This document shows positions 3,096-48,752 of a stretch of DNA of 64,000 nucleotides, one piece after another. The stretch is from Parapedobacter tibetensis (GTDB taxonomy: Bacteria; Bacteroidota; Bacteroidia; Sphingobacteriales; Sphingobacteriaceae). The DNA lies in assembly GCF_024704835.1 (NCBI RefSeq), contig NZ_JAMXBE010000016.1, positions 24,586-88,585 on the forward strand, in the 5' to 3' direction. The position numbers and the translations under genes are program-made. Each line of letters starts with the position of its first letter. Within the stretch, counting starts at the first letter, position 1. The notes under the pieces were generated by a model. That model saw only the letters and a list, made by a program, of their open reading frames with translations. It was not told where the DNA came from and made no database searches.

Positions 3096-3188
3096 ATGGT
3101 TTAGGGTAATTAAATCCGGGGTAATAATTCATCCCAACTTAATGTTGAGCTAACACAAGTGTAATAGTATTGCAAAAAAAACTTAATC

Positions 3189-39192: not shown

Positions 39193-41295
39193 ATGAAGTT
39201 TAACCAAATCTTACCATCATTCATGATTATTTCCACCGTATTGGTGTCTTGTGAACAAAAAACCGAAAATCCATTATTGGCAGCATACGATACGCCATAC
39301 GGGGTGCCGCCATTCGACAAAATCAAAAATGAACACTTCAGCCCTGCGTTTGACGAAGCTCTCAAGCAACACGAAGCGGAGATCGACTCCATCGCGAACA
39401 ATTCCGAAGGCGCCACGTTTGATGACACTATTTTAGCATTGGACAATGCAGGGCAGTTGTTGAAGCGCGTATCGTCCGTATTTTATAATCTCAATTCGGC
39501 AAACACCAATGGGGATATCCAAGCATTGGATAAAGAGTTGGCACCGAAACTGTCGGCTCACAGCGATAACATATCCCTTAATGCGCAATTGTTTTCCCGG
39601 GTCAACGCTGTATGGGAGGCCCGCGAAAATCTGAACCTAAACGACGAACAACTCATGCTGTTTGAAAAAACCTACAAGAGTTTTGTTCGCAATGGGGCCA
39701 ATTTAAGCGAGTCAGACAAAGAAACATTGCGCGAAATCAATGGACAACTGGCGGTGTTGACCACCGAGTTTGGACAAAATGTATTGGCCGAAACCAACGC
39801 CTATGAATTGGTTGTCGAGCGGGAGGAAGACCTGGCCGGATTGCCGGACGGACTGGTTGCCGCTGCTGCTGAAACCGCTAAAAATAAAGGGCATGAAGGT
39901 AAATGGGTGTTTACTCTTTCAAACTCCAGCGTGATGCCTTTCCTGCAATATGCAGACAACCGGGATTTGCGCAGACAGGTATGGGAGGCCTATAAAAACC
40001 GTGGAGGCAATGGTAATGACAGGGATAACGGCGAGACTCTGGTCAAGATTGCGAATCTCCGTTTGCAGAAAGCCAATCTATTGGGCTACCCCACACATGC
40101 ACATTACGTGCTGGAGGAGGCAATGGCCGAAAATCCAGACAATGTGCAAAAACTCCTGAACGATCTATGGAAGCCAGCCATTGCCAAAGCCAAAATTGAA
40201 GCCTATGATATCAAAAAGGAAATCGAAGCGGCCGGAGGAGATTTTGACCCGGCTCCTTATGATTGGCGATATTATGCAGAGAAAATCCGGCAGAAGCGCT
40301 TTTCGCTCAACGAAGATGAACTGAAACCCTATTTCAGCTTGGATCAGGTAAGGCAAGGAGCTTTCGAGGTGGCGACAAAGCTATATGGAATCACGTTCAA
40401 GGCTCTTGAAAATATGCCCGTATACCATGAGGAAGTATCGGCATATGAAGTGCTTGATGCCGATAGCAGCCATTTGGGCGTGTTTTATGTCGATTACTTT
40501 CCGCGTGAATCCAAGCGTCCCGGAGCATGGATGAGCTCATTTAGAAGCCAGAGCACCGAAGATGGGCAACGTGTGGCTCCGGTGATTATCAATGTATGCA
40601 ATTTCACCAAGCCCTTTGGCGACAAGCCCGCTTTGTTGACATTCGATGAAACCACCACATTGTTTCATGAGTTCGGGCATGCGCTGCATGGGTTGTTGTC
40701 CAATGTGACTTATTGTGGCTTGGCAGGTACGTCGGTTTCGAGGGACTTTGTTGAATTGCCTTCACAGGTGATGGAAAATTGGGCGGAAGACCCAGCGGTA
40801 TTGAAAGTGTACGCCAAGCATTACCAAACCGGCGAAGCCATACCCGATGAACTGATTGCCAAACTAGAAAGCGCGGGTACCTTTGACCAAGGTTTCGCAA
40901 CCGTGGAGTATTTGGCATCATCACTATTGGATTTTGACTACCACACGATCACAAGCCCCATTACAGTAAACGCCCGTGAATTTGAGGCAGCATCCATGAA
41001 AAAAGCGGGGCTTATCGATGAAATCATCCCACGGCATAGCAGCACATATTTCCAGCATATTTTCTCAGGGGGATACTCAGCGGGGTACTACAGTTACATC
41101 TGGTCTGAGGTGCTGGATGCTGATGCGTTTGCAGCTTTCAAGGAAACCAGTCTCTATGACAAGACCATGGCCGATTCGTTTAGAAAGAACATCCTCGAAC
41201 GCGGAGGAACAGCAAAACCTGCCGTACTTTATCGCAACTTCCGGGGAACCGATCCAAATCCGGTACACCTGATGAAGAAGCGGGGATTAGATTAA
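39193..41295 (+). CDS. M3 family metallopeptidase (peptidyl-dipeptidase Dcp-like lipoprotein)
   Basis: A zinc oligopeptidase of the thimet/Dcp family, 700 residues, the normal length. The zinc site is HEFGH (His492, Glu493, His496), with the downstream Glu in the family SxVMENW motif (LPSQVMENWAED). The N-terminus is a lipoprotein signal ending at the Cys in LVSCEQ, so it is exported, unlike E. coli Dcp. It would cut short peptides in the periplasm. It is intact, although the sequences on both sides of it are gene remnants. A TAACTTTG box supports the start. Confidence 0.93.
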   Translation: MKFNQILPSFMIISTVLVSCEQKTENPLLAAYDTPYGVPPFDKIKNEHFSPAFDEALKQHEAEIDSIANNSEGATFDDTILALDNAGQLLKRVSSVFYNLNSANTNGDIQALDKELAPKLSAHSDNISLNAQLFSRVNAVWEARENLNLNDEQLMLFEKTYKSFVRNGANLSESDKETLREINGQLAVLTTEFGQNVLAETNAYELVVEREEDLAGLPDGLVAAAAETAKNKGHEGKWVFTLSNSSVMPFLQYADNRDLRRQVWEAYKNRGGNGNDRDNGETLVKIANLRLQKANLLGYPTHAHYVLEEAMAENPDNVQKLLNDLWKPAIAKAKIEAYDIKKEIEAAGGDFDPAPYDWRYYAEKIRQKRFSLNEDELKPYFSLDQVRQGAFEVATKLYGITFKALENMPVYHEEVSAYEVLDADSSHLGVFYVDYFPRESKRPGAWMSSFRSQSTEDGQRVAPVIINVCNFTKPFGDKPALLTFDETTTLFHEFGHALHGLLSNVTYCGLAGTSVSRDFVELPSQVMENWAEDPAVLKVYAKHYQTGEAIPDELIAKLESAGTFDQGFATVEYLASSLLDFDYHTITSPITVNAREFEAASMKKAGLIDEIIPRHSSTYFQHIFSGGYSAGYYSYIWSEVLDADAFAAFKETSLYDKTMADSFRKNILERGGTAKPAVLYRNFRGTDPNPVHLMKKRGLD

Positions 41296-41438
41296 TGCCC
41301 ATCCATGTTTTGCCCGACAAAAAGGCGCTCCTGGCCTGTATGGCTGGGGGCGATGAGCGGGCATTTAAATTTAAAGCGGCCGTTCAGTAGAAGTATCTCG
41401 ATGTCAGACCCGAAGATATCAACGAAGCGACCTTCTAG
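41295..41438 (+). pseudogene. Sigma-factor-like gene fragment with in-frame stop
   Basis: An ATG overlapping the M3 stop (TAATG) opens 31 codons reading MPIHVLPDKKALLACMAGGD then ERAFKFKAAVQ and a TAG at 41388-41390. The stretch ALLACMAGGDERAF resembles the N-terminus of ECF sigma factors (LLxxxAxGDExAF). The same frame continues after the stop as KYLDVRPEDINEATF to a second stop at 41436-41438. It looks like a truncated, possibly recombined gene remnant. I cannot name the second part. Confidence 0.4.
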
Positions 41439-41515
41439 TCATTCCGATTGCCAAAATGAAATATTTTTACATGGAATTTGGATGATTTTTACCTCGACGT
41501 CAACACCGCCTCACA

Positions 41516-41523
41516 TAACTTTG
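41516..41523 (+). promoter_or_regulatory. -7 promoter element of the GH105 gene
   Basis: TAACTTTG, 33 bp before the ATG at 41557. It falls inside the longer open frame and so argues for the downstream start. Confidence 0.45.
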
Positions 41524-41556
41524 TGTCGAACACTTGTATGCCTTCGAGGTAAAACT

Positions 41557-42927
41557 ATGTATAAACTTTTTTTCCAACAGATAGCCGTCTTTGCGATCTC
41601 CGCGAGCCTGCTCTTTTCATGCATGAACCCGAAGGAGGATGAGGAGGATGTGACTAACGACGCGAATACCCCGCTCCATTTGCTGAAACCTGAATACCCG
41701 GTAACCTACGGTGAAACAACCCCAGACAACGTGAAGGAGGTGGTAGACCGGGTGCATGCCTATCTTAATGAGACGACACCTGCACGGCTGGTCGACAAAA
41801 ACAGCCAACACCCTGTGGACGATTTGAGCGCTGTGGATACGAATACGGTGTTCGAGCAGGGTGATTTCCGCTTAATCAGCTACGAATGGGGGGTGACATA
41901 CGGTGCGATGCTTACAGCAACAGAAGCCATAGGCGACAACCGGTACCTCCAATACACGCAGAAACGGATCGATTTCATTGCCGATGTCGTTTCGGCTTTC
42001 CAGGCTTCGCTCGGCGAGGGGGCACTCTCCCGGTCGGCCGTACACTCGGTTACCCATCCGGGTGCGTTGGACGATGCCGGTGCGATGTGCGCCGCAATCA
42101 TCAAAGCGCTGCAAACGGGCGCTATACAGAAAGAGGTTACACCGCTGATTGAGAACTATATCGATTACATCCTCCACAGGGAATTCCGGCTCGAAGACGG
42201 TACGTTGGCGCGTAATCGGCCGCTACTTAACACACTTTGGCTGGATGACCTTTATATGAGTTTGCCGGCGTTAGCCCAGATGGGTAAACTGACCGGCGAA
42301 CAGCGCTATTTTGACGAGGTCATCACGCAGTTCTGGTTGTTTGCCGACCGGATGTTCGTCCCGGAAAGGGGACTGTACATGCATGGATGGGTGCAGGGTA
42401 TGGAGCCGCATCCGCATTTCCACTGGGCGCGTGCCAACGGATGGGCGTTGCTTACGAAACTGGAGATACTCTCGGCGTTGCCGGCGACCCACCCGGCGAG
42501 GGAGAAGCTATTGGAACAGTTCAGGGCACACGTTCGGGGCTTAACACGCTTGCAGGATGGCACTGGATTTTGGCACCAGCTGCTCGATCGCAACGACACC
42601 TACCTGGAGACGTCCGCGACAGCGATTTACGCCTATTGCATTGCCCACGGCATCAATCAGGGGTGGCTCGATGTAAAGGCTTACGGGCCAATGGCCTTGC
42701 AAGCGTGGAACGCTGTCAGCACCAAGGTTAATGAAAACGGGCAGGTGGAAGGCACTTGTGTGGGAACGGGCATGGGTTTCGACCCCGCTTTTTATTATTA
42801 CCGGCCGGTGAACAAATTCGCCGCGCATGGATACGGGCCAGTGATCTTGGCAGGTGCGGAGGTATATCGGCTACTCAATAGTGCATCGTATGAAGTCAAC
42901 GACAGCGCATTGATGTTTCTCGACTAA
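41557..42927 (+). CDS. Glycoside hydrolase family 105/88 protein (unsaturated rhamnogalacturonyl hydrolase-like)
   Basis: Family GH105 releases the unsaturated galacturonic acid from products of rhamnogalacturonan or pectate lyases. The protein has 456 residues from ATG 41557, with a lipoprotein signal ending in LLFSCMN. The frame is open back to 41305 but that part overlaps a gene fragment and the promoter box. Family features are TLWLDDLYMSLP, with the Asp equivalent to YteR Asp143, and HFHWARANGWALL, corresponding to the W(A/G)R(G/A)NGW motif. It appears complete. It belongs functionally with the PL11-GH105 gene 1.5 kb downstream as part of a pectin locus. Confidence 0.9.
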   Translation: MYKLFFQQIAVFAISASLLFSCMNPKEDEEDVTNDANTPLHLLKPEYPVTYGETTPDNVKEVVDRVHAYLNETTPARLVDKNSQHPVDDLSAVDTNTVFEQGDFRLISYEWGVTYGAMLTATEAIGDNRYLQYTQKRIDFIADVVSAFQASLGEGALSRSAVHSVTHPGALDDAGAMCAAIIKALQTGAIQKEVTPLIENYIDYILHREFRLEDGTLARNRPLLNTLWLDDLYMSLPALAQMGKLTGEQRYFDEVITQFWLFADRMFVPERGLYMHGWVQGMEPHPHFHWARANGWALLTKLEILSALPATHPAREKLLEQFRAHVRGLTRLQDGTGFWHQLLDRNDTYLETSATAIYAYCIAHGINQGWLDVKAYGPMALQAWNAVSTKVNENGQVEGTCVGTGMGFDPAFYYYRPVNKFAAHGYGPVILAGAEVYRLLNSASYEVNDSALMFLD

Positions 42928-43000
42928 TTTGGAAATGAATCTCCAAGGCGGGCTCATTTTTGCGGTGAGCATCGATAAACATTAGCATCCCACGACGATC

Positions 43001-44424
43001 TTAAGCTTCTTCGTATTTTTTGGTATATTTGGATGGTGAGTAACCGAATTTGGTCTTGAAGCATTTTCGGAAATAATCGGTGTCCGTAAAACCCACCATG
43101 TATGCGATCTCGTTCACATTGAATTTATTGTCTTTGAGCAATTGCTTCGCACGGTTAAGCCGTATTTCCTTAATGATATCGGCGATGCTTGAGCCCGTAA
43201 GGGCCTTCATTTTGCGGTAAAGCTGGGTACGGCTTAAGCCGATGCTGGTGCATATCTCGTCCACGTTCAATCCGGAATCATCAATTCGTTCTTCCACATA
43301 GCCAAGTACTTTCTTGAGCAGTTTTTCGTCCGGCGAAATGGGGTCTATCTTGGAAGGCTCAATGGTGATGTTGGCCTTGAATTTCTCCTGTAATCGAGTA
43401 CGGTTAAGCAGTAGATTCTTGATTTTTAATGACAGTAACTCCAAATTAAAAGGTTTAATAATATAATCATCGGCCCCGGTCTTAATGCCTTCCATTTCAT
43501 ACTCAATAGGTGTCCTTGCGGTAAGAAGGATGATGGGGATATGGCTGGTGAGGACGTCCGCTTTTAACTTGCTGCAAAGGGTAATCCCATCCATCTCGGG
43601 CATCATCACATCGCTGACAATCAAGTCTGGTGTATGTTTGATTGCCGCCGCTAACCCTACCACGCCGTTTGACGCGATGAGAACTTGGTATTGCTTGGAA
43701 AAACAGTCTCGGAGGTATTCCCGCATTTCGGGATTGTCCTCGACGAGTAGCAGGGTAAAGCGCTTGCGTAGATTTTTACCGTTGATAGTTTGGATAGGGT
43801 GGTGTTCGTAGTGCTTTTCTGCTCCGGTGATTGTGGCGTCAGTCGCAGGGAGGGCAGCTGCATTCGGTTGTTCGCTAGGTGCCTGCAGTGCCTTGGGGAT
43901 TTTGACTGTAAATGCCGTGCGGTTTGCGCAGCCCTTTCCGGTAGTGCTCGTTACGGCAATGGCGCCGCCATAGAGCTCAACCAACGACCTGCTATAGGCC
44001 AAGCCCAGGCCGGTACCACCGGCGTTGTTGAAACTGCTCTGCTGGAACGGTTTGAAGATATGGTCCATATCGCCTGCAGCAATGCCGCGGCCATTGTCTA
44101 CTACTTCGATAACAACAAACCCGGGGATGTGATTGTCTTCTACACGCAGGCCAACCTCGACTTGCCCGCCATCATTGGTAAACTTCAAAGCATTTGAAAG
44201 TAGGTTATTTAGTACTTTTTCGATTTTGTCTGCGTCGAAACTGATCCACATCGAAGCGAAACTGAAGTTTGTTTCGAGATGGATGTTCTTCAGCCGCGCC
44301 AGTTGTTGGAACGTGTCAACCGTATCGGCGACGAACCGGACTATATCCCTGTTTTCAAGGGTCAGCCGCTCGTTGCCTGTTTCGATTCGCCGGATATCCA
44401 GTAGTTGGTTTACTAGTTTCTGTG
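43001..44424 (-). pseudogene. 5'-truncated hybrid two-component system regulator (HTCS)
   Basis: Remaining domains in order: the second helix of the dimerisation domain (KLVNQLLDIRRIETG), an HATPase with VEVVDNGRGIA and GGTGLGLAYSRSL, a receiver with VSDVMMPEMDG, and an AraC-type HTH ending in FGYSPSKYTKKY. Intact HTCS proteins of polysaccharide utilisation loci have about 800 more N-terminal residues: a periplasmic propeller sensor, Y_Y_Y domain, membrane helix and the HisKA H-box. All of these, including the phospho-accepting His, are gone. The frame continues to 44644, but that part is antisense to the PL11 gene and not HTCS sequence. The break is at about 44415-44424, head-to-head with truncated PL11. 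Confidence 0.8.
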
Positions 44425-44476
44425 GCGCATTCAGCTGGGTAAAAACATCCGCGAGGGAGCACACTACACCCAGTTT

Positions 44477-46945
44477 ATGGTATATGATCTCGATGGGGAT
44501 GGGAAAGCCGAAATCGCTTGCAAAACAGCGGATGGAACCGTTGACGGTGTCGGCAATGTAATCGGTGACCGCACGAAAGACTGGCGCAATGAGCAAGGGC
44601 GTATATTGGATGGCCCTGAATTCCTCACGGTATTCGAAGGCCAAACCGGCAAAGCGCTGGCTACGGCAGACTATATACCCACCAGGGAACCCGTGGACGG
44701 GTGGGGTACGCCTAGGCGTACCGACAACCGAGGAAATCGGTCAGATCGGTTTTTGGCCGCCATTGCTTACTTGGATGGCCACCTGCCCAGTTTGTTGATG
44801 TGCAGGGGATACTATGTCCGTTCGGTCATCGCAGCATGGGACTTCAGAGATGGTAAACTGACATCGCGTTGGGTGTTCGACTCAAAAGATGGCAACAATC
44901 CTTATTCCGCGCAAGGATTCCATAACTTGAGCATTGCCGATGTGGACGAAGATGGCAAAGATGAGGTTATTTACGGAGCGATGGCAATCGATGATGATGG
45001 CAAACCACTGTATACTACAGGTTGGGGGCATGGGGATGCCCAGCACTTGGGTAACCTGGTGCCCTCGCGTCCCGGACTGGAGATCTTTACCATCCATGAA
45101 AACCCTCCGGTAAATAGTCCGGGTGCCGCACTTCGCGACGCACGTACCGGAGAGGCGCTTTGGCAGGGCGCGTACGGCCAGGATGTAGGGCGGGGCGTCG
45201 GGGCGAACATTGACGGAGATAATCCGGGTGCCGAGCTCTGGTATTTAGGCTCAGGCGGACTGTTAAACACAAAAGGTGAACGGATAGGCCCCATGCCAAG
45301 TTCCGTGAATTTTCTAATCTGGTGGGATGGTGACCTCACAAGAGAATTACTTAATGGCATCACCATTGACAAATACAGGCAGGGACCGATTTTTACCGCC
45401 GACGGGTGTGTATCCATAAACGGAACCAAATCTACACCGGTACTCAGCGCAGATATCTTTGGCGATTGGCGGGAAGAAGTGATCTTTCCCACGGCAGACC
45501 ACCGATCCCTGCGCATTTATTCCACGACGATTCCGACGCCACACCGACTGCACACCCTAATGCATGATCCACAGTATCGGTTAAGCGCAGCATGGCAAAA
45601 CGTGGGGTATAACCAGCCCCCGCACACCGGATTTTACATAGGTGAGGACCTGCCACCAACACCGAAACCTGTGATCGTTACGTCTGGTCTACCTTTTGAC
45701 GGCGACCAACTGCCCAAGAAAGAGCAGGTGCTGCAACAACTTAGGCGGGTGAATGATTATTTCATGGACAAATGGCCCGATGCTGGCAAACGCATCGTCA
45801 CCAATAAGGACCGTCCGGCCAATATCTGGACCCGGGCCGTCTATTACGAAGGGTTAATGGCCTTATACACAATAGATGAGAACAGACGGTATTACGAATA
45901 TGCTGTGCAATGGGGAAACAAACATAATTGGGAAACTGCTTACCAGTCGGTGACTCGCGATGCCGATAACCAGTGCTGCGGCCAGACGTATATCGATCTC
46001 TATCGAATAGATAAGAATCCTGATTACGTTCGTAATATCAAAGATAATGTTGACCGGATGGTGGAAAATGAACGGGCGGACGACTGGAATTGGATCGATG
46101 CCATCCAGATGGCGATGCCCGTTTTTACCAAGCTTGGTGTAACACTCGAAGATACGCGCTATTTCGATAAGATGTATGAGCTGTATAGCCACGCCAAATA
46201 CCGGGAGGGCGGCAACGGCCTTTACAATCCGGAAGACAAGCTATGGTGGCGGGATAAGGATTTCGTACCCCCCCACCGGGAACCCAACGGGGAAGATTGC
46301 TATTGGTCGCGCGGAAATGGCTGGGTGGTTGCCGCTTTGGTGCGTGTATTGGAAGAATTGCCCGAAGCAGACCCGCATTACGCAGAGTACCGGCAGGATC
46401 TGAAAGACATGCTTGCAGCGTTAATTCCGTTGCAGCGCCAGGATGGGTTCTGGAATGTGAGCCTGCATGATCCCAACCACTTCGGCGGAAAGGAAACAAC
46501 AGGCACGGCGCTTTTCGCGTATGGGATGGCGTGGGCATTAAATAAGGGATTGGTGGATGTGGATGTATATTTGCCGGTTATCACCAAAGCTTGGAATGCA
46601 CTAGCGGGCGAAGCTTTGCATGAAAGCGGTTTCCTGGGCTATGTGCAAGGAACTGGTAAGGAACCTAAAGACGGGCAGCCCGTGACCTATTCAAGCCAAC
46701 CGGACTTTGAGGATTATGGTTTAGGCTGTTTTCTGCTAGCCGGTACGGAGGTTTATAAATTGAGCGAAAGCGGATCGGTAGCTGTCTACGCTGAGGACAG
46801 CGTCAGCCGTTACAATACCGTTCGTGTGGATGCCGCCTTTTCGATGCCCGCGATTAAAGTGTATAATTTCCCGCAAAGCGACTTTCCGATTACGGACTTC
46901 GGTGCCGTAAATGGGAGGCAAACAAAAAACAATGATGTCAACTAA
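44477..46945 (+). CDS. Truncated rhamnogalacturonan lyase (PL11) - GH105 - GH28 start
   Basis: Three modules. Residues 1 to about 395 are PL11 rhamnogalacturonan lyase, beginning at the MVYDLDGDGKAEIACKTADG calcium-binding segment; PL11 homology continues upstream of the ATG to about 44420 (LWRIQLGKNIREGAHYTQF) and then hits a TAG at 44414-44416. About 200 N-terminal residues including the signal peptide are lost. Residues about 410-775 are a complete GH105 domain with the RGNGW motif (YWSRGNGWVVAAL). The last residues, FPITDFGAVNGRQTKNN, match the start of GH28 polygalacturonases, then the frame stops. Both ends are therefore cut. Without a signal peptide the product would stay in the cytoplasm if made at all. 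Confidence 0.8.
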   Translation: MVYDLDGDGKAEIACKTADGTVDGVGNVIGDRTKDWRNEQGRILDGPEFLTVFEGQTGKALATADYIPTREPVDGWGTPRRTDNRGNRSDRFLAAIAYLDGHLPSLLMCRGYYVRSVIAAWDFRDGKLTSRWVFDSKDGNNPYSAQGFHNLSIADVDEDGKDEVIYGAMAIDDDGKPLYTTGWGHGDAQHLGNLVPSRPGLEIFTIHENPPVNSPGAALRDARTGEALWQGAYGQDVGRGVGANIDGDNPGAELWYLGSGGLLNTKGERIGPMPSSVNFLIWWDGDLTRELLNGITIDKYRQGPIFTADGCVSINGTKSTPVLSADIFGDWREEVIFPTADHRSLRIYSTTIPTPHRLHTLMHDPQYRLSAAWQNVGYNQPPHTGFYIGEDLPPTPKPVIVTSGLPFDGDQLPKKEQVLQQLRRVNDYFMDKWPDAGKRIVTNKDRPANIWTRAVYYEGLMALYTIDENRRYYEYAVQWGNKHNWETAYQSVTRDADNQCCGQTYIDLYRIDKNPDYVRNIKDNVDRMVENERADDWNWIDAIQMAMPVFTKLGVTLEDTRYFDKMYELYSHAKYREGGNGLYNPEDKLWWRDKDFVPPHREPNGEDCYWSRGNGWVVAALVRVLEELPEADPHYAEYRQDLKDMLAALIPLQRQDGFWNVSLHDPNHFGGKETTGTALFAYGMAWALNKGLVDVDVYLPVITKAWNALAGEALHESGFLGYVQGTGKEPKDGQPVTYSSQPDFEDYGLGCFLLAGTEVYKLSESGSVAVYAEDSVSRYNTVRVDAAFSMPAIKVYNFPQSDFPITDFGAVNGRQTKNNDVN

Positions 46946-46988
46946 AATACCGGGTGAATGCCTGGGAGAAATTTAAAACACTGAAGGA
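46946..46988 (+). other. Short junction after the GH28 stub
   Basis: One plus-strand frame reads KYRVNAWEKFKTLKD and stops at a TAG just before the end of the ABC gene. It looks like the C-terminal tail of another protein joined to the GH28 stub, but is too short to be sure. Confidence 0.2.
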
Positions 46989-48752
46989 CTAGATACCTGC
47001 CGAATGATATTGCAGGTCGTAAAGCCGCTTATAGTAGCCATCCATACGTAGCAACTCTTGATGTGAGCCCATTTCTTTCATCTCGCCTTTATCGAGCACG
47101 ATGATTTTATCGGCCTTTTGGATGGTGGAAAGCCTGTGGGCAATGACGATGGAGGTGCGTCCTTTCATCAGGGTATCAATGGCTTGCTGGATAAGTTCCT
47201 CAGATTCGGTGTCTACTGATGAGGTGGCTTCATCCAGCACCAATATTCTCGGATTATGCACTAAGGCCCGGATGAAGGAGATGAGCTGCGCCTGTCCGGA
47301 GGAGAGGGTAGCCCCGCGCTCTTGCACCTTATAATCATATCCCCCCGGCAACCGCATGATAAATTCGTGTGCCCCCACCTGCTGTGAGGCTTCTACGATT
47401 TGTTCCCGGGTAATCGTTGGATCATTGAGGCTAATGTTGCTGGCCACAGAATCAGAGAATAGAAACACATCTTGCAACACCGTAGCGATGGTACGGCGTA
47501 AATAGTTAAGCTCGTATTCGCGAATAGCTAAACCGTCCAACAGTATCGATCCGCGATTGACCTCATAAAAGCGGCTAAGGATATTGATTGTAGAAGATTT
47601 ACCAGCCCCCGTGGCGCCTACCAAAGCTAATGTCTCGCCGGGGTTTACTTTGAAGTTGATATCCTTCAACACCCACTTATCTTCGTCATACGCAAACCAA
47701 ACATGATCAAAGGTAATCTCCCCTTGGATACGGCTGGGTTGCTTCGTCCCCTTATTCGGTGTTTTCTCATCGGTATCCAGTACGGCAAAGATACGTTCAG
47801 CACTCACCATGCCCATTTGCAGCGTATTGAATTTATCCACCAATTCCCGGATAGGCCGGAAGATCATGTTGATGTACATGATGAAGGCGACAATGACGCC
47901 GGGCGATATTTCCCCGGCTAATACCAATTTTGAACCATACCATACCAATAGCCCCAATGCAATGGCCATGATGATTTCAATGACAGGAAAAAAAATGGAG
48001 AAATACCAATTGGCTCGTATATGCGCATTGCGATGTTCAGCATTCGCTGCTTTAAACTTGCGCATTTCCTGTGCTTCTCGGGCAAAATACTGGATGATGC
48101 TGATGCCAGAAATATGTTCTTGCAAGAAGGTGTTCAAATTGGCAACCCATTTGCGCACGTCCTGGAAAGCCGATTTCATGGCTTCCTTGAAAATGTATGT
48201 GGCGCCAATCATCAAGGGCATTGGAATTAATACGATAAGCGTAAGCTTCCAATCCGTGTAAAACATCACGCCGAGGATAACCACCAATTGGAGAATATCC
48301 CCGATTAGCTGGATAAGTCCCTCGGAGAAGATATTGGCAATGGTTTCCAAATCCGAAACGGTGCGGGTGATGAGCCGGCCTATCGGGGTATGGTCAAAAT
48401 ATTTGAGACGAAGGCTGGTGATGTGGTTGAACACATCGATACGTAAATCTCGAATAACGGATTGCCCGAGGGTACTGGTCATCAACGTGTGAAAATATCG
48501 GATAACAGTTTGCAGCAGCAATAGGCCTAACATCAATAGCAGCATGATCCGAAGGCCAGCTGTATCATTTTGGAGAATAAATTTATCGAGTGTATACTCG
48601 GTGAGCATGGGTAGGGCCGGGGCAGCACCGGCCATGATGATGGTAAGTAGTACGGAAACAATGAAAATGGCCCGATAGGGTCGTACGTACCGCATCATCC
48701 TGCGGAGCAGGTGTGCATCATATGTTTTGCCGGTTACCTGGGGATTGCTCAA
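46989..48752 (-). CDS. ABC exporter, fused membrane and ATPase domains (MsbA-like)
   Basis: A half-transporter of 587 residues: six membrane helices in the first 320 residues, then a nucleotide-binding domain with Walker A GATGAGKSS, signature LSSGQAQL instead of the usual LSGGQ, Walker B ILVLDEATSSVD and the switch His in IAHRLS. It belongs to the MsbA/multidrug exporter family and works as a homo- or heterodimer exporting lipids or drugs. No second half is adjacent. The Gly-to-Ser change in the signature occurs in working family members. Substrate unknown. Confidence 0.92.
   Translation of the reverse strand: MSNPQVTGKTYDAHLLRRMMRYVRPYRAIFIVSVLLTIIMAGAAPALPMLTEYTLDKFILQNDTAGLRIMLLLMLGLLLLQTVIRYFHTLMTSTLGQSVIRDLRIDVFNHITSLRLKYFDHTPIGRLITRTVSDLETIANIFSEGLIQLIGDILQLVVILGVMFYTDWKLTLIVLIPMPLMIGATYIFKEAMKSAFQDVRKWVANLNTFLQEHISGISIIQYFAREAQEMRKFKAANAEHRNAHIRANWYFSIFFPVIEIIMAIALGLLVWYGSKLVLAGEISPGVIVAFIMYINMIFRPIRELVDKFNTLQMGMVSAERIFAVLDTDEKTPNKGTKQPSRIQGEITFDHVWFAYDEDKWVLKDINFKVNPGETLALVGATGAGKSSTINILSRFYEVNRGSILLDGLAIREYELNYLRRTIATVLQDVFLFSDSVASNISLNDPTITREQIVEASQQVGAHEFIMRLPGGYDYKVQERGATLSSGQAQLISFIRALVHNPRILVLDEATSSVDTESEELIQQAIDTLMKGRTSIVIAHRLSTIQKADKIIVLDKGEMKEMGSHQELLRMDGYYKRLYDLQYHSAGI

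Follow-up and report, generated by a model that had tools for sequence, protein, structure and literature searches.

The closest described counterparts of the locus treated here are the rhamnogalacturonan loci of Bacteroides thetaiotaomicron that are controlled by hybrid two-component systems (HTCS), BT4108-BT4124 and BT4145-BT4183, as they appear in the available portion of the source (PMC3878776). A 5.7-kb block at positions 41296-46988 of a stretch of Parapedobacter tibetensis DNA (contig NZ_JAMXBE010000016.1; the whole 64-kb stretch that was analysed is termed the window) resembles them in its HTCS with AraC output, its pectin lyase, its rhamnogalacturonyl hydrolases and its putative direct-repeat operator, with a spacing of 22 bp against an average of 21 bp. 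Unlike these loci, as far as that portion describes them, the block has neither a SusC/SusD pair nor the sensor of its regulator, its lyase and GH28 genes are cut, and one enzyme gene is whole. Short and long versions of a pectin polysaccharide utilisation locus (PUL) also occur among Bacteroides strains, so that related genomes likewise differ by large blocks of one PUL; in the part of the report that was available, however, the short versions keep the SusC/SusD pair and the HTCS, both of which are lost or broken in the block (PMC4769552). The block is probably a decayed, deletion-scarred remnant of a rhamnogalacturonan-I utilisation locus, similar to the one of roughly 40 kb that is carried by a relative of the same genus, G002.

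The central evidence is a head-to-head joint between a truncated HTCS gene on the minus strand and a truncated PL11 rhamnogalacturonan lyase gene on the plus strand, which the first-pass annotation had placed at 44417-44420 and which tblastn of both frames against same-genus genes confirmed. On the minus strand, homology to three HTCS genes of the same genus starts at KLVNQLLD (codon 44417-44419), the proposed end of HTCS homology, for G008 (60%) and G002 (59%), and one residue earlier for G006 (57%). The plus-strand frame matches the G002 PL11 from FLWRIQLGKN onwards (84% over 414 residues), so that the junction proposed for PL11 stands and its starting residues, LWRIQLGKN at 44420, have to be moved one codon upstream, to the F at 44417. 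The Lys codon 44419-44417 of the minus strand and the Phe codon 44417-44419 of the plus strand are the same three bases; the two homologies thus overlap by TTT, at which the bases of the relatives diverge in the alignment of both flanks. This short overlap, which agrees with the predicted joint of a few bases, was measured against the sequence of relatives instead of the true ancestor. No convincing repeats were found at the joint, where only TTT is shared and no long repeat is present. In a genus-wide DNA search with the block, the alignments break off at the joint on either flank (HTCS pieces stop at block positions 3115 and 3124, PL11 pieces begin at 3122 and 3126), and the joint is spanned in none of the eight other same-genus genomes (G001 to G008).

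Both genes lack their 5′ ends, as had been claimed and as Pfam domain calls on the frames of the block (E <= 0.001) and comparison with G002 bear out. The regulator stump retains HATPase_c (E 2.4e-25), the receiver (E 4.3e-26) and the AraC HTH (E 1.2e-20), and HisKA (PF00512) was not found in it at this threshold. It begins at residue 767 of the G002 HTCS, within the end of HisKA (716-781), and 766 of 1242 residues are therefore lost, including the periplasmic sensor (Reg_prop, Y_Y_Y) that Pfam detects in the G002 and G008 orthologues. Its frame begins within antisense PL11; its candidate starts are TTG or GTG codons, or an ATG that comes only at 44251, and no promoter-type box of the −7 consensus TAnnTTTG lies on its strand within 44300-45400. 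The lyase has lost 192 of the 612 residues of the G002 PL11, among them the start and the RGI_lyase N-terminal domain, located at 32-122 in G002 and absent from the stump according to Pfam. Neither stump is likely to work as a response regulator or a pectin lyase, respectively, though annotation could label them so.

Comparison with a relative having an intact HTCS-susC-susD-PL11 locus, suggested by the first-pass annotation, could be made with G002, in which both joint genes are whole. Its rhamnogalacturonan-I locus (contig C30, about 316-360 kb) consists, in this order, of PcRGLX lyase, GH105a, GH2, HTCS (minus strand), fasciclin, SusC, SusD, fasciclin, an open reading frame (ORF) without Pfam match, SusC, SusD, a 1736-residue PL11 with CHU_C, PorP/SprF, a hydrolase, GH2, PL11, GH105b and a GH105-like ORF, the last of which was identified by tblastn. 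The order and orientation GH105a(+), HTCS(−), PL11(+), GH105b(+) are common to the window and G002, as is the operator repeat, and the aligned parts share 64-75% DNA identity. The breakpoints map to C30 positions 326115 and 355230, that is 29.1 kb apart, with two SusC/SusD pairs between them, and PL11 and GH105b are two genes in G002. The GH2 and PcRGLX genes that stand beside GH105a in G002 are absent from the block, and so is a SusC/SusD pair; its long frames are GH105a, the HTCS stump and PL11-GH105b-GH28. Related loci with other gene orders are present in G008 and G006, and a second rhamnogalacturonan gene set (PcRGLX, two GH105, PL11, SusC, SusD) lies on contig C5 of the P. tibetensis genome itself. 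As a separate observation, the 1736-residue PL11 of G002 C30 (L037:6301-11511), whose CHU_C is a type IX secretion domain, adjoins the PorP/SprF gene.

A single loss of some 29 kb would have produced the joint through short-homology (illegitimate) end joining over the common TTT; the HTCS would thereby have lost its sensor half and PL11 its start, and the SusC/SusD genes would have disappeared. A single deletion that included SusC/SusD, as first proposed, accounts for the joint, where G002 is collinear, and does not account for the locus, given the PL11-GH105b and GH105b-GH28 fusions, the cut GH28, the absent GH2 and PcRGLX genes and the position of the block between neighbouring genes. Further deletions would have fused PL11 to GH105b and GH105b to GH28, with GH28 lost beyond its first residues, and GH2 and PcRGLX, next to GH105a, may have gone in the same way. 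Such losses may have been tolerable owing to the second gene set on C5. The locus is most likely not working as a system now, since the regulator is devoid of sensor, HisKA and promoter-type box and the lyase of its start; the complete GH105a gene may still be expressed or may be silent.

The run of the plus-strand ORF, in frame, from PL11 through the GH105 domain into the start of a cut GH28 was not covered by the first-pass annotation. In G002 the place of the PL11/GH105b joint is taken by 115 bases in which PL11 stops and, 22 bases on, GH105b starts; stop, spacer and GH105b leader are gone in the window with the frame kept. The passage from GH105b to GH28 is likewise in frame, and the SVAVYAED found there resembles, in our reading, the end of a signal peptide. 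A natural PL11-GH105 fusion as the source of the long ORF was rejected, because none of the 21 tandem PL11/GH105 pairs examined (genes no more than 3 kb apart, 80 loci fetched) is fused. The 1042-aa open frame of G057 was also dismissed as a PL11-GH105 fusion; the same contig, as L069, has stops between two separate genes. The two in-frame fusions are a mild oddity and no proof of function.

A putative HTCS operator and −7 box precede GH105a. With the search pattern ATTTTTAC[CA]-N13-ATTTTTACC, the repeat was found with 0 mismatches at two sites of G002 (C30:316819 and 351609), of which one is before a GH2 gene and one ~0.77 kb before the PcRGLX start, and with 2 mismatches at G008:C100:48720 before SusC and at G006:C11:24828(−) before GH105b. 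Single weak repeat matches mean little, because at <=2 mismatches the pattern gives 19 matches in 9 genomes and its backward-read control gives 18; within the window, at <=3 mismatches, one match was observed against 0.18 expected, and 16 of 100 shuffles held at least one. The box distinguishes the sites: TAnnTTTG lies exactly 22 nt downstream at four of the five PUL sites (24 nt in G006) and at none of the 14 other matches, two of which have such a box 1 nt downstream. Repeat and box are thus a probable, predicted regulon motif of rhamnogalacturonan HTCS loci in the genus, and the block would expose this common operator and promoter arrangement (direct repeat, 22 nt, −7 box). The 22-bp site spacing fits an HTCS-type operator, since Bacteroides HTCS operators are direct repeats whose sites have a mean distance of 21 bp, according to the part of the source that was available (PMC3878776).

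How old are the losses? Since synonymous sites are saturated, relative-rate and conserved-site counts were used in place of dN/dS. Among columns conserved at >=95%, those broken in the window number 0/112 for PL11 (93 sequences), 1/52 for GH105b (52 sequences), 0/91 for GH105a (10 sequences) and 0/52 for HTCS (15 sequences), after exclusion of sequences with stops, <93% coverage, >98% identity or duplicates. Relative-rate counts oppose window-only to G002-only changes unless another reference is named, and omit the rows of PL11 of G018 and G032, which were read on the wrong strand (15 and 4 stops), and of HTCS of G006, which was out of frame (24 stops). They are 31/38 and 32/26 for GH105a, 28/29 and 23/15 for GH105b, 20/22, 16/18, 15/23 and 14/21 for PL11 and 33/61 for HTCS; against G008 they are 28/18 and 16/16 for GH105b and 33/52 for HTCS. 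When PL11 is compared with L085, from another genus (74% identity), in place of G002, the nearest, the window is faster with L071, L075 and L007 as outgroups (42/25, 44/23 and 45/21) and slower with G002 as outgroup (20/62), so that the lopsidedness depends on the outgroup. By these counts the window is not clearly sped up. Almost no conserved residues are damaged, and therefore the losses look recent on the scale of species divergence; the stumps look either recent or still constrained, and the counts do not separate the two.

The first-pass annotation had noted that an assembly misjoin would look the same as a deletion. A chimeric joint, in an organism that has the whole locus, appears improbable, even if the assembly is a draft of 85 contigs, the joint occurs in one genome only, and the pieces show hardly any conserved-residue damage, which would be expected of genes that are intact in the organism. 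At orthologue-level identity, no other place in this assembly, rated 99.82% complete, contains the missing HTCS half: the G002 sensor half, which is 73% identical to that of G008 and 60% to that of G006, finds in the genome of the window long matches (>150 residues) of 23-43% and short pieces of <=46%, mostly in other large regulator-sized frames and in a few shorter ones. A misjoin of existing contigs is disfavoured, because this half is on no other contig; moreover, TTT is all that is common at the joint, and one chimera would account at best for one of the at least three truncations or fusions within 6 kb. Given the absence of the HTCS half and the additional fusions within these 6 kb, a true series of deletions is the better reading. 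Several points weigh against it. The joint is known from the assembled contig alone, which leaves room for a chimera, and was seen once, with one genome per species compared. The PL11 start, with one match in its own genome (42%, in the whole PL11 of C5), gives a weaker test than the HTCS half, as PL11 starts of other genera are only 44-53% alike. The G002 layout may not be ancestral, because the gene orders of G008 and G006 differ, and at its level of DNA identity to the block both the exact ancestral sequence and the succession of events are inferred. How many deletions took place is uncertain as well, and the absence of GH2 and PcRGLX may be an old difference in gene content. Finally, under pure decay the two further joints, both in frame and at domain borders, are a one-in-nine coincidence by frame alone.

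A tentative possibility, compatible with deletion, is that the block was already broken when it came to this place, as a fragment of a PUL copied horizontally or ectopically, and did not decay in place. Its two flanking genes adjoin each other, tail to tail, in five of the eight same-genus genomes (G002, G004, G005, G007 and G008; 30-148 bases between the matches), none of which has the locus at that place; the G+C of the block, 0.47-0.56, exceeds that of most flanks (0.39-0.50), and GH105b of G006 adjoins another Dcp-like gene. An ectopic exchange between Dcp-like genes is a conceivable route for such a move. The elevated G+C would suit ordinary coding sequence as well, and a tRNA search of the window found none, which is a weak point against arrival, as no search aimed at mobile elements was made. 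Far less credible is retention of the pieces for use, with the ATPase-receiver-AraC stump acting on the GH105a operator 3 kb off, or with PL11-GH105-GH28 having been under selection as an enzyme of three domains prior to the final truncations. This would agree with the intact predicted operator and −7 box before GH105a, with the nearly unbroken conserved residues and amino acid change not clearly faster than in whole relatives, and with two in-frame fusions at domain borders; the lack of damage is, however, equally expected from recent deletion, and the stump is without HisKA, sensor and box on its strand and begins in antisense PL11, and the lyase is without start and N-terminal domain. Similarly, it is very unlikely that the deletion yielded a sensorless, membrane-free HTCS output module that still reads the GH105a operator, and that the locus had earlier carried, through two in-frame fusions, a PL11-GH105-GH28 polypeptide with three domains; in that case, a ligand-gated locus would have turned into a small constitutive or cross-phosphorylated one-enzyme regulon. 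The deletion-scarred remnant is probably the product of ordinary decay of a redundant rhamnogalacturonan locus, not a new system. It is a well-documented fresh instance of a known process, gene-cluster decay, and offers a base-level view of a way in which a large carbohydrate locus may disappear, with a few short-homology deletions leaving stumps; no such scar was found in the literature searched, which was mostly openly accessible.

Table 1. Coordinates of the features of the block and its neighbours in the window.
Feature	Position	Strand	Remarks
M3 peptidase (Dcp-like), whole, left neighbour	39193..41295	+	Pfam PF01432; NCBIfam PRK10280 below its cut-off
Left edge of block	41296..41452	+	possible ECF sigma gene shards in one frame: LLACMAGGDERAF ... 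RPEDINEATF
Putative HTCS operator	41463..41493	+	direct repeat ATTTTTACA-N13-ATTTTTACC; recurs in G002, G008 and G006 loci
Putative −7 box	41516..41523	+	TAACTTTG; 22 nt after repeat
GH105a, unsaturated rhamnogalacturonyl hydrolase-like gene, whole	41557..42927	+	PF07470, E 1.2e-87
Gap of 73 bases	42928..43000	none	971-aa GH2 gene at corresponding place in G002
HTCS stump	43001..44419	−	HATPase_c, Response_reg, AraC HTH; sensor and nearly all HisKA absent
Probable deletion joint	44417..44419	none	TTT common to both genes; AAA (Lys) on minus strand, TTT (Phe) on plus strand
PL11 rhamnogalacturonan lyase stump	44417..45658	+	PF21348 (RGL11_C) incomplete, profile positions 73-490 of 490 only; first 192 residues absent
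PL11/GH105b in-frame joint	45659..45700	+	42 bases in window, 115 in G002
GH105b domain, whole except N-terminal leader	45701..46759	+	PF07470, E 3.6e-83; 79% to G002, 80% to G008
GH28 stump, N-terminus only	46778..46942	+	VRVDAAFSMPAIKVYNFPQSDFPITDFGAVNG; in frame from GH105b, cut after NNDVN
Right edge of block	46943..46988	none	one frame = VNAWEKFKTLKD*, reaching ABC transporter's stop codon
ABC transporter, whole, right neighbour	46989..48752	−	87-91% in 8/8 same-genus genomes

GH105a, the sole complete gene of the block (Table 1), shares 76.5% amino acid identity with its G002 counterpart and 79.2% with that of G008, and we read its start, LLFSC, as lipoprotein-type. The stretch to the left of it gives only a hint of an extracytoplasmic function (ECF) sigma gene, through weak similarity: the first piece, LLACMAGGDERAF, reaches at best a tblastn E of 0.46 against 30 of the 73 sigma loci of the genome, the second matches nothing meaningful among these loci, and 41296-41452 as a whole matches only itself in 37 genomes. 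The GH28 stump aligns with positions 21-67 of the 454 of NCBIfam NF049892, an alpha-galacturonidase model (E 5.3e-9, far below the model cut-off, as a stump would be), and with GH28-like starts of Flavobacterium and Sphingobacterium loci (tblastn E 1.4e-6 to 0.03). The right-edge peptide has no relative among the compared loci.

The block lies between the M3 peptidase and ABC transporter genes. Orthologues of the peptidase at 71-78% are present in six of the eight same-genus genomes; the two neighbours lie on separate contigs in G003, and for G001 and G006 nothing but a peptidase paralogue of 46-47% is above the cut-off. In G006 (C11:23631-27046) GH105b adjoins a paralogue of the Dcp-like peptidase, and the block of the window adjoins another Dcp-like gene.

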